Origin: Clostridiaceae bacterium | Lineage (GTDB): Bacteria > Bacillota > Clostridia > Saccharofermentanales > DTU023 | Length of the DNA: 64,000 nt | Assembly: GCA_012841145.1 (NCBI GenBank) | Contig: DUVH01000012.1 | Location: forward strand, 1-64,000 | Direction: 5' to 3' | Shown: one piece after another, positions 55,631 to 59,112 of the stretch | How the letters are laid out: the number at the start of each line of letters is the position of its first letter | Position numbering within the stretch: the first letter of the stretch is position 1 | The notes under the pieces: model-generated | Database searches by the model: none | The model's input: the letters and a program-made list of their open reading frames with translations, nothing else | What the model was told of the DNA's origin: nothing | Program-made: the position numbers and the translations under genes

Positions 55631-55939
55631 TTAACCCGGCTTATACTCTCTATTTTTGACTCGTCGATAAGGCTCCGGTGTCGGCGCCGGTAGAGGTTCG
55701 CCCTTGCCGTCCATCCACCAGCACCCCGTCAACGCAGAAAAATATAACGGGACGTCTTTCCCCTCGATGCGGCAGATCCAGCACTCACCGGAACCGGCGG
55801 ATCGCGCCTTTCGGAAGCCGACATACCGTGAAGTCGTAATCTCATAACGCGTGCCGTCCTCCCACGTAATCGCAAGCGGCTTCCGCACGCCCGACGAGCG
55901 CATCTCCAACAAAACGGCAACGGGAACGGGTCTGCTCAT
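55631..55939 (-). CDS. Small conserved hypothetical protein, polymerase-cassette accessory (downstream paralogue)
   Basis: 102 aa ending in the YFSALTGCWWMD region; start overlaps the Y-family polymerase stop; visibly similar to the 57336..57608 product. Confidence 0.75.
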   Translation of the reverse strand: MSRPVPVAVLLEMRSSGVRKPLAITWEDGTRYEITTSRYVGFRKARSAGSGECWICRIEGKDVPLYFSALTGCWWMDGKGEPLPAPTPEPYRRVKNREYKPG

Positions 55940-57207
55940 GGCCCGAAAAACCCGACCGGATGGATAACATTTTCACGCTTGATGTCGTGTTCCGTCAGCG
56001 TTCGGTCGACAAGCGAGATGCCGCGCCGTACGGAAAGTCCCCCGTATCGACCTCTCAGATCGTCAATCGTCTCCTCGAGGCGGAGCATCGCCTCGCGCTT
56101 TACTTCCCGTGCGAGATAGGACTGCTGTTTCAGGCGGGAGATCGGTATGAGATTGCAGGCGCGGACGCCGAGACTTCGAATCTTCTGACCGCGCTCGAAA
56201 TGTTCCAAGATGAGTTCTGTCGCCGCGGGCGCGATCTCGGAACACAGCTGCGTCGGGAACGGAAGGGGCGCCTGTCGCTCAAAATTGTACAGCTGATAGT
56301 CGCGCATGCTGATCTGAATCGTCCGTGCGGCCATGCCGGCGTCGCGCAGGCGACTTGTCACCGACTCGGACAACATATAAGTGACGGCTTTGATCTCCTG
56401 TTCCGTGTAAAGATCGTGGTGCGTGGTGAGAGAATTGCCGACTGACTTTACGGTGTTCTCCCGCTCCGTCTCCGCGACGGGCGTTTCATCGAGACCGGTT
56501 GCGAACGCATGAAGATTCAAACCGACAACGCCGAAAACGGAGCGAAGATATGTCGGCCCCAAGGCGGCAAGCTGACCGATGGTGCGAACGCCGATACGGC
56601 GCAATTTATGCGCCGTCGCCCGACCGACATAAATAAGATCCTCAACGGGAAGCGGATAGACGACATCGAGATAATTATCGCGCGTAATGGCGGTGACGGC
56701 GTCCGGCTTTCTCAGATCGCTTCCGAGTTTTGCGTAGATCTTGTTCCAGCTGACACCGATGCTGACGGTCAGTCCGAGTTCCTCTTTGACTCGCCGGCGC
56801 AATTCTTCGGCAACGTCGAGGCCGTCATCGCGAGGACAGCCGGTGAGATCGAGCCAACACTCATCGATGCCGAAAGGTTCAACACGATCGGTGTATTCGC
56901 AGTACATTTTACGTGCCAGACGGCTGTAATAAAGATAACGGGCATAATCGGGCGGAACAAGGATCAAATCGGGACACTTCTGCTTCGCCTCCCAAATCGT
57001 TTCAGCCGTTTTGACGCCCGCATTTTTTGCGATGTGGTTCTTCGCCAGAATGATCCCGTGACGATTTACAGGATCGCCGGCAACGGCACACGGAACATCT
57101 CTCAGCGCCGGATATCGCAACATCTCCACGCTGGCGTAAAAAGAATTCTGATCCACATGTAAAATAACACGATCCGCCACCGCGCACACTCCTCCTCTCA
57201 CCCACAT
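55936..57207 (-). CDS. Y-family DNA polymerase (DinB/UmuC type)
   Basis: LHVDQNSFYASVEM, EPFGIDECWLDLTG, SIGVSWNKIYAKLGSDLRKPDA. Confidence 0.93.
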   Translation of the reverse strand: MWVRGGVCAVADRVILHVDQNSFYASVEMLRYPALRDVPCAVAGDPVNRHGIILAKNHIAKNAGVKTAETIWEAKQKCPDLILVPPDYARYLYYSRLARKMYCEYTDRVEPFGIDECWLDLTGCPRDDGLDVAEELRRRVKEELGLTVSIGVSWNKIYAKLGSDLRKPDAVTAITRDNYLDVVYPLPVEDLIYVGRATAHKLRRIGVRTIGQLAALGPTYLRSVFGVVGLNLHAFATGLDETPVAETERENTVKSVGNSLTTHHDLYTEQEIKAVTYMLSESVTSRLRDAGMAARTIQISMRDYQLYNFERQAPLPFPTQLCSEIAPAATELILEHFERGQKIRSLGVRACNLIPISRLKQQSYLAREVKREAMLRLEETIDDLRGRYGGLSVRRGISLVDRTLTEHDIKRENVIHPVGFFGP

Positions 57208-57335
57208 CGAATCACGATTACTCCCGAAGGCAAGCCTGAATGATCTTTCAGTTTCCTTCTTTCACCCACATCCGAACACCGACTGTTTCCGAAATCGAGC
57301 TTGACGATCTTGCGCTTCCTTACTCATCTATCTCA

Positions 57336-57608
57336 TCAAGCGGCCGGTTCACACCACCAGCGATAGGACGACGCGTCGTAGAACAGCTTCATCGGCATGC
57401 CTTCGACCATGCAGAGAAAACGCCAAGCGTCCGATCCGTCTTTTGCGAGATTGTAGAGCGGCGTCACGAGCCGGCGATCGACGGGAATGGCCATCCCGTC
57501 GTCAAGGCGGATCTCAACGGGGAACAAATCTCCCTCCGGACTGAACTCCGCGATTACCGTGATGTAAAGTCGCTTTGTGTTGTATTCAAACATCCGTCTT
57601 ACCTCCAA
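57336..57608 (-). CDS. Small conserved hypothetical protein, polymerase-cassette accessory (upstream paralogue)
   Basis: 90 aa MEVRRMFEYNTKRLYITVIAEFSPEGDLFPVEIRLDDGMAIPV...WRFLCMVEGMPMKLFYDASSYRWWCEPAA; upstream of the Y-family polymerase on the same strand; LexA-like box just upstream. Confidence 0.75.
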   Translation of the reverse strand: MEVRRMFEYNTKRLYITVIAEFSPEGDLFPVEIRLDDGMAIPVDRRLVTPLYNLAKDGSDAWRFLCMVEGMPMKLFYDASSYRWWCEPAA

Positions 57609-57611
57609 GCA

Positions 57612-57623
57612 GAACGATTGTTC
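57612..57623. promoter_or_regulatory. LexA/SOS-box-like site 1
   Basis: GAACGATTGTTC (GAAC-N4-GTTC). Confidence 0.7.
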
Positions 57624-57638
57624 TATTTAAGAGTATCA

Positions 57639-57652
57639 CGAACGTTTGTTCG
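57639..57652. promoter_or_regulatory. LexA/SOS-box-like site 2
   Basis: CGAACGTTTGTTCG (CGAAC-N4-GTTCG, full match to the Gram-positive SOS box). Confidence 0.85.
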
Positions 57653-57943
57653 TTACAAGCACAAAAAAATAGCGCAACATGACGTTCGCTTGACAAACAG
57701 ATGACAGGTGAGCGGACGAGACTCCGCCAAGACGCCGATCACCTGCTCAATCACAACGCGTTCGTCATCGGACAACGGTTTGAAATCGCGCATCGTCCGG
57801 ATGTTGTCGAGGAGCTGTTCCTCATTGCTCATGCCGCTCAAGACGTAATCAACTTCCGGTTGATCCGTCAGGATTGTATTCAGAACCTCCGCTGAATCAT
57901 GGAAAGAAAGGCCGCTCTCCATAAAAAGATCGACCATTTTCAT
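57653..57943 (-). pseudogene. Aldo/keto reductase remnant with internal deletion
   Basis: N-terminal-like KMVDLFMESGLSFHDSAE joined directly to C-terminal-like EVLNTILTDQPEVDYVLSGMSNEEQLLDNIRTMRDFKPLSDDERVVI; the central barrel is missing. Confidence 0.6.
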
Positions 57944-58026: not shown

Positions 58027-59112
58027 ATGTTAAGGAAAAAGACGTTTCGTACATACGAAGAACAGATCGACTTTTTGAGAAGTCGCGGCATTGTGATTGA
58101 GGATGAAAAGGAAGCTGTCGAGGCGTTGAGCACGTATTCTTACTATTCGCTCGTCAACCTCAACAAGCATCTCTACGGGGGATTGAAGGAGAGACAGTTC
58201 ATCGGCAATCCGTCACTTCTCGATCTGCAGCTCGCTCACATGCTGAACATGAGTTTCTATCAAGTTGTCCTCAAGGGCATCCTTTACATCGAGGCGTCAT
58301 TCAAGACGAAACTTGCGTATTTGATCTCTCGAAAATATGGCGTGATGAGTCGCGATGACATCAGCGATCCGAACAATAATTTTCTGTATCGCGGTTACTA
58401 CATTGACTCTCACCCCGGCTCGACGAATGTATTGCGATCGCTTGCGGGGAAGCTCCGCTATCTCCAGTCCGATAAAGATAATGATTCATACTCACGTCAC
58501 TTTCTGCTCTCCAACCGTCAGCTCCCGCCGTGGATTTTTATCCATGACGTTGAATTCGGGATCGCGATTCAGTGGTATAACATCCTGCGCGAACAGGACA
58601 AAAACGAAATCTGTGAGCAGATGATCTGGGGACAAACCGGCCGCAAGCCCCAAGAAATGTCGATTGAAAAGGCAAAGGTATTTCTTTCGGATGCTTTACA
58701 AATACTGAGAGAGTACAGAAACACGATCGCACACGGTCAACGCGTGTTTGCGAGCGAAATTGAAAGCTCGCTCACCGAAGAGGAGCTGTTCATGCTGCTT
58801 CCAGACGGTGTGTTGACAAAGCAAGAATTCGATGACGGCATCGGAACAAATGACCCCTACGCCTGCCTGCTTTCAATCGTGATGTTGATTCATGACCCCA
58901 TTTTGATGATGAGTTTTCTTACTGAGCTTCAATCGCAGTTAAATTTCGCCCGAATGATGCAATCGTCCGTGTCTTCCGAAACGAAACAACCGTCTGAAAT
59001 TCTCGGAATTCCGCCCTTCACGATGGAACGGCTGATCGATCTGAGCCACCAGCGCTTCGGAGATGTCTCTCGCTACTATTTCGATCTGAACAAACGCGCC
59101 GAATTATCCTAA
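58027..59112 (+). CDS. Abi-family (Abi_2/AbiD-F-like) protein with HEPN-type RNase motif
   Basis: KTFRTYEEQIDFLRSRGIVIEDEKEAVEALSTYSYYSLVNLNKHL N-terminus and REYRNTIAHGQR (R-x4-H). Confidence 0.8.
   Translation: MLRKKTFRTYEEQIDFLRSRGIVIEDEKEAVEALSTYSYYSLVNLNKHLYGGLKERQFIGNPSLLDLQLAHMLNMSFYQVVLKGILYIEASFKTKLAYLISRKYGVMSRDDISDPNNNFLYRGYYIDSHPGSTNVLRSLAGKLRYLQSDKDNDSYSRHFLLSNRQLPPWIFIHDVEFGIAIQWYNILREQDKNEICEQMIWGQTGRKPQEMSIEKAKVFLSDALQILREYRNTIAHGQRVFASEIESSLTEEELFMLLPDGVLTKQEFDDGIGTNDPYACLLSIVMLIHDPILMMSFLTELQSQLNFARMMQSSVSSETKQPSEILGIPPFTMERLIDLSHQRFGDVSRYYFDLNKRAELS

Follow-up and report, generated by a model that had tools for sequence, protein, structure and literature searches.

A clostridial SOS cassette in which two diverged ImuB-C-like small proteins flank a predicted active Y-family DNA polymerase

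Translesion synthesis by Y-family DNA polymerases is well established, as is the control by LexA and RecA of promoter boxes of the kind described below. The closest described systems are standalone ImuB-C proteins (ImuB-C is DUF6504, PF20114, in Pfam), which three papers place beside Y-family polymerases (PMC3765255, PMC6511836, PMC12926913). Clostridial YqjH polymerases were already reported in 2019 to be associated with ImuB-C, so the locus that we describe is not a new kind of system. In two of the papers, associations between the polymerase and ImuB-C are predicted and AlphaFold complexes are presented, and docking of the polymerase on RecA through a RecA-NT motif, with ImuB-C as an additional small subunit, is likewise a prediction (PMC6511836, PMC12926913). 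In what was accessible of the literature on ImuB-C and related polymerases, we did not find the paired, flanking arrangement of small proteins reported here.

The cassette lies in a 64-kb window (the whole stretch of DNA that we analysed) from the draft genome of an uncultured Clostridia bacterium (1.57 Mb, 91% complete, 41 contigs). Behind two LexA boxes, the minus strand encodes an upstream small protein (S-up), a Y-family polymerase (PolY) and a downstream small protein (S-dn); together they form a three-gene SOS cassette with these features:

57639 to 57652, LexA box 1, CGAACAAACGTTCG, a perfect CGAAC-N4-GTTCG palindrome
57611 to 57624, LexA box 2, AGAACAATCGTTCT, 28 bp from box 1
57336 to 57593, minus strand, S-up, 85 amino acids, ImuB-C-like core only, with GGAGG 8 nt before the ATG
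55936 to 57207, minus strand, PolY, likely true start GTG 57180, active-site motifs intact
56020 to 56109, minus strand, RecA-NT-like motif of PolY, REVKREAMLRLEETIDDLRGRYGGLSVRRG, recognised by eye against the N-terminus of the host's own RecA, DRQAALKSALDRIEKDFGKGAVLTLG (motif definition in PMC6511836)
55631 to 55939, minus strand, S-dn, 102 amino acids, ImuB-C-like core plus a tail, start overlapping the PolY stop (ATGA)
55637 to 55669, minus strand, basic C-terminal tail of S-dn, YRRVKNREYKP, matching Y[RK]RVK[DN]RxYxP in 9 of 9 orthologues

Most of this layout had been anticipated in the original prediction, made from the DNA alone, and is confirmed here. The two small open reading frames lie on either side of a genuine Y-family polymerase (Pfam IMS, E = 2.5e-41; IMS_C, E = 7e-21), and the 102-codon frame does begin inside the polymerase stop codon. 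The two LexA-like boxes ahead of the upstream frame (57652–57639 and 57624–57611) have counterparts in relatives, with a spacing of 28 bp in seven of eight and 30 bp in the eighth (L008); box 1, one of two perfect matches within the window, is kept 5′ of the cassette in all eight (L003–L010). LexA-like boxes are also present in the same genome at the promoters of recA (AGAACAAAAGTTCT) and lexA (GAACATTTGTTT), in keeping with the proposed SOS-type control. The length of 90 amino acids given for the upstream protein was wrong: that version starts at TTG 57608, which sits 5′ of the ribosome-binding site, so we take S-up to be the 85-residue product of ATG 57593, behind GGAGG. PolY probably starts at GTG 57180, because the polymerases of relatives begin M-[AK]DRVILHVDQ. 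The gap between S-up and PolY is about 155 bases in the window; in three relatives (L008–L010) the end of S-up and the beginning of PolY overlap or are only a few bases apart, which argues for a single operon, and we infer that the three genes are transcribed as one.

Upstream of the cassette, a 96-aa reading frame on the minus strand (57653–57943) ends at the LexA box, and its match to aldo/keto reductases is confined to their C-terminal end (PF00248 positions 248–288 of 291, E = 0.015); it is probably a gene remnant. Beyond it and divergent from the cassette is a plus-strand gene (58027–59112) for an AbiD-like abortive-infection protein (PADLOC AbiD, E = 7e-31).

The similarity first noticed by eye between the two small proteins is real. 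S-up and S-dn match each other by BLASTP (E = 1e-5), a search of the genome with S-dn finds S-up as the only other match, and the profiles of their orthologue groups align with 97.6% probability (E = 4e-12), which identifies them as true paralogues at the sequence level. Compared with the four closest relatives, all three genes have dN/dS ratios of about 0.06–0.12 (S-up 0.06–0.12; S-dn 0.06–0.10), so both small proteins are under strong purifying selection. In more distant members of the genus (L007, L009 and L010) S-up has diverged faster, with dN of 0.39–0.46 versus 0.20–0.28 for S-dn, and the invariant basic tail, present in all nine S-dn orthologues, is missing from S-up. The tail and the faster divergence of S-up fit specialised, non-interchangeable subunits. 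Each protein forms its own monophyletic group, and the tree, built from about 80 columns, is compatible both with a single duplication inside the clade and with older origins (a one-clade origin is not rejected, p-AU = 0.37), so that it does not decide between them.

Scans with single sequences placed the small proteins in no family of Pfam, NCBIfam, PHROGs or PADLOC. Neither S-up, S-dn nor seven other single members of their family (hereafter the S family) matched PF20114 at Pfam's gathering cut-off, and a scan of the host genome gave no DUF6504 match. Weak Pfam and NCBIfam matches to SPC22, Tudor_2, PrpR and ParE were isolated, below cut-off, and rejected. Profile comparisons by hhalign linked the S family to DUF6504 at 92.6–93.4% (E about 1e-7, score 37–40) and its single-copy members at 94.3%; controls scored at most 16 (100 column shuffles), 15.5 (reversed profile) and 11 (YolD). 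By subgroup the S-dn group reached 51% and the S-up group alone a weak 13%, the link of the latter running through the wider S family. Iterated hmmsearch (inclusion E < 1e-3, 11,186 ORFs) converged on the same set from both directions: starting from S it reached 47 of 48 sequences of the DUF6504 set as well as ImuB-C of Deinococcus deserti, and starting from DUF6504 it recovered 110 S proteins including both window copies (E about 1e-16). Of the 165 sequences that the search from S gathered, every one was S or DUF6504, and none was YolD. By these profile searches S-up and S-dn are a divergent branch of the ImuB-C superfamily, and not the distinct accessory family that had been proposed. They resemble described standalone ImuB-C proteins in homology by profile, in length (80–100 aa), in being beta-rich with an invariant C-terminal tryptophan, and in the position of their genes next to a Y-family polymerase under SOS control, the linkage expected of ImuB-C. 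They differ in being too divergent for the Pfam model, in occurring here as two diverged copies around one polymerase, and in belonging to a cassette that has no LexA, DnaE2 or ImuA gene. Members of the family are called 'hypothetical protein' wherever annotated because they fall below Pfam's DUF6504 model.

That the small proteins are YolD/YqjX-type or UmuD-type subunits is highly improbable. Their genes have the genomic position and role of YolD in Bacillus UvrX/YqjW operons (PMC6511836), but YolD (a profile of 19 proteins) reaches only 0.4% by hhalign, no YolD protein was drawn in by iterated search, PolY falls outside the YolD-partnered polymerases (support 100/99), and neither small protein has a UmuD or S24 peptidase match in Pfam or NCBIfam. 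A search of the host genome for YolD also found none, and the earlier impression that these are not YolD proteins was correct. Like the Bacillus YqjW–YqjX and UvrX–YolD–RecA systems, the cassette combines an SOS-induced Y-family polymerase, a RecA-NT-like motif as judged by eye, and a small partner; unlike them, its small partners are unrelated by profile and its polymerase is on a separate branch.

AlphaFold2 models of both proteins are all-beta, as expected of ImuB-C, with cores near pLDDT 90. S-dn is modelled with six strands and no helix (pLDDT about 90 for residues 1–80), and its tail is probably a flexible peptide because confidence is low there; S-up is a beta-rich model of seven strands and no helix (pLDDT 82). 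Fold searches with the two models found no match in the PDB, and a viral fold library gave one plausible match, an uncharacterised siphovirus protein that stayed below threshold (E = 2.5e-3, TM 0.55). ImuB-C likewise has no close PDB relative, and its barrel is considered distinct from the SH3 barrel of UmuD′/YqjX, according to PMC12926913. The C-terminal tryptophan is invariant (W74 of S-dn, W79 of S-up; alignments A1 and A3), and the invariant and >90% conserved columns of these alignments are G, P, W, V, D, C and L, without K or R; the nature of the conserved residues was part of the description of the original ImuB-C set and does not define membership, so we weighed it without treating it as decisive. 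It also bears on the idea that the S proteins act as binders of damaged DNA that guide the polymerase, rather than docking on RecA and PolY. Gene context led to that proposal when ImuB-C was first described (PMC3765255), and S-dn, with its basic tail, would fit it, but core conservation is mainly of Gly, Pro and Trp and published models put ImuB-C in protein–protein interfaces (PMC12926913), so we think it unlikely.

PolY is a catalytically intact and, from its sequence, predicted active polymerase, with the motifs HVDQNSFYAS and FGIDECWLD and a full-length Pfam IMS match. After its little-finger domain, the RecA-NT-like helix lines up by eye with the N-terminus of the host RecA. It is the only Y-family polymerase of the genome, which has one RecA and one DnaE, with no second RecA/ImuA and no second DnaE; for LexA there is one match over the curated cut-off and one partial match to the C-terminal part. 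The cassette resembles an ImuY/DnaE2 cassette (L199) in SOS control, in having a Y-family protein and in a small ImuB-C gene that overlaps the upstream stop. There, in contrast, ImuY is inactive and DnaE2 synthesises, whereas here PolY is predicted to be active and the genome has a single DnaE. In a tree of polymerases, the S-partnered enzymes group together (100/99), separate from those with YolD or DUF6504 partners; part of the branching among the long DUF6504 lineages is not secure. The clamp-type motif preceding the RecA-NT-like helix is degenerate in the window (56020–56130, minus strand) and in L003–L012 (QQSYL, QESFL) relative to QLxLF in Lachnospiraceae. PolY ends in a tail, HPx[GS][FY][FL], that is absent from 21 of 21 YolD- or DUF6504-partnered polymerases and degraded in two loci that have lost the adjacent S genes (L011/L012); this hints that the tail may bind S, and it stays a hint because four loci without S (L017, L037, L048 and L054) keep it.

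Taken with the linkage described below, the cassette supports the earlier suggestion that the small proteins are probable polymerase accessory factors. Our preferred reading, to which we give a probability of roughly 0.66, is that the cassette encodes an SOS-inducible PolY–RecA mutasome whose two small subunits are diverged, standalone beta barrels of the ImuB-C type. LexA would occupy both boxes in front of S-up until RecA activation frees them; the three genes would then be expressed together, S-dn by translational coupling. PolY is predicted to bind RecA through its RecA-NT-like C-terminal helix, and one or both ImuB-C-like barrels would complete the RecA-bound polymerase, docking as small subunits near the PolY C-terminal region and RecA, which would license the polymerase or set its position on damaged DNA. 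Binding of S-up and S-dn to PolY and RecA, and a division of labour between the copies, would follow from this model.

The two-copy state is characteristic of the host genus. Twelve of its 14 genomes have exactly two S copies and the other two (about 84% complete) have none; both copies flank PolY in all eight close relatives, and L206–L234 show the same order wherever enough sequence was fetched. Among the genomes searched this order is confined to this genus, other genera of the host family having a single PolY–S pair, no S, or, in one genome, three matches. Among 78 PolY relatives we found 8 S–PolY–S, 53 PolY–S and 4 S–PolY loci, so that 65 have a nearby S gene, mostly adjacent; 5 of the 13 others end at a contig end. 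Conversely, 27 of 30 S loci found by family search adjoin a polymerase of the same group. In a class-wide sample the S family is present in 63 of 291 genomes, and in most Clostridia it is single-copy and usually downstream of PolY; a neighbourhood survey therefore did not show the duplicated protein to be the norm. In a sister lineage (L011/L012) PolY directly follows a LexA-like box, with no adjacent S gene, and for L017, L048 and L054, whose polymerases belong to the subgroup considered here, no S gene was detected either nearby or elsewhere in the draft genomes; S may therefore be dispensable.

Could S-up and S-dn then form one heterodimeric subunit, giving a PolY–RecA–(S-up/S-dn) complex with two non-equivalent barrels? 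Its role would be analogous, not homologous, to that of the UmuD′ dimer of Pol V, a system that resembles this one functionally (polymerase, RecA and small subunits) and differs in that the S proteins have no UmuD homology and include no autoproteolytic subunit. Joint retention in all 12 genus genomes that have any copy, similar purifying selection, separate monophyletic groups and the S-dn-only tail are consistent with a heterodimer, but related Clostridia manage with one copy at 53 PolY–S and 4 S–PolY loci, and ImuB carries a single ImuB-C domain; we regard it as a tentative proposal. The tail of S-dn also suggests that the two could be alternative subunits, one serving PolY–RecA and the other recruiting the replicative polymerase, the clamp or DNA through that basic peptide. 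In PMC12926913, ImuB-C of the mycobacterial mutasome is modelled in contact with both ImuA and DnaE2, and the PolY core ends here in a weaker clamp-type motif than in Lachnospiraceae; against this, we saw no clamp motif in S-up or S-dn, and alternative subunits are possible rather than probable. Within the preferred reading of an SOS-inducible mutasome, it is a speculative extension that duplication made the single ImuB-C-like subunit of clostridial PolY into an obligatory, non-equivalent pair, giving this genus a mutasome of four components (PolY, RecA, S-up, S-dn), which, if true, would be a composition not described so far.

The S family also occurs in gut phages and plasmids. Two human gut phages (Ca. 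Heliusvirales; PV036427.1 and PV036438.1, L197 and L195) have an S gene on the opposite strand and within 1–2 kb of a gene annotated as DNA polymerase. Elsewhere (L203/L205; genome G488, contig C42:19397–19982), two S genes stand in tandem on the same strand, with PolY absent from the surrounding 1.5 kb or so; this is another two-copy arrangement, independent of the first. Blautia, Thomasclavelia, Coprococcus, Dorea and Anaerobutyricum (L022, L024–L026, L028, L030 and L039) share identical S proteins whose genes are equally spaced from PolY, which points to a mobile element carrying the pair. Single-copy S proteins of Lachnospiraceae (for example L055:3637–4029 and L076:5396–5746) are extended at the N-terminus by a conserved stretch, MGVYDYHHDSGRSDRP, which the window copies lack and which is possibly a polymerase-binding arm.

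ImuB-C is among the least understood pieces of the bacterial mutagenesis machinery, and a large clostridial branch of it, with members in gut Lachnospiraceae, gut phages and plasmids, has been hidden under the name 'hypothetical protein'. This branch would work beside a polymerase predicted to be active, with neither DnaE2 nor ImuA. With a compact cassette that has two natural paralogues, and with sister genera that carry a single copy or lack it, what ImuB-C does can be tested without the greater complexity of the mycobacterial mutasome.
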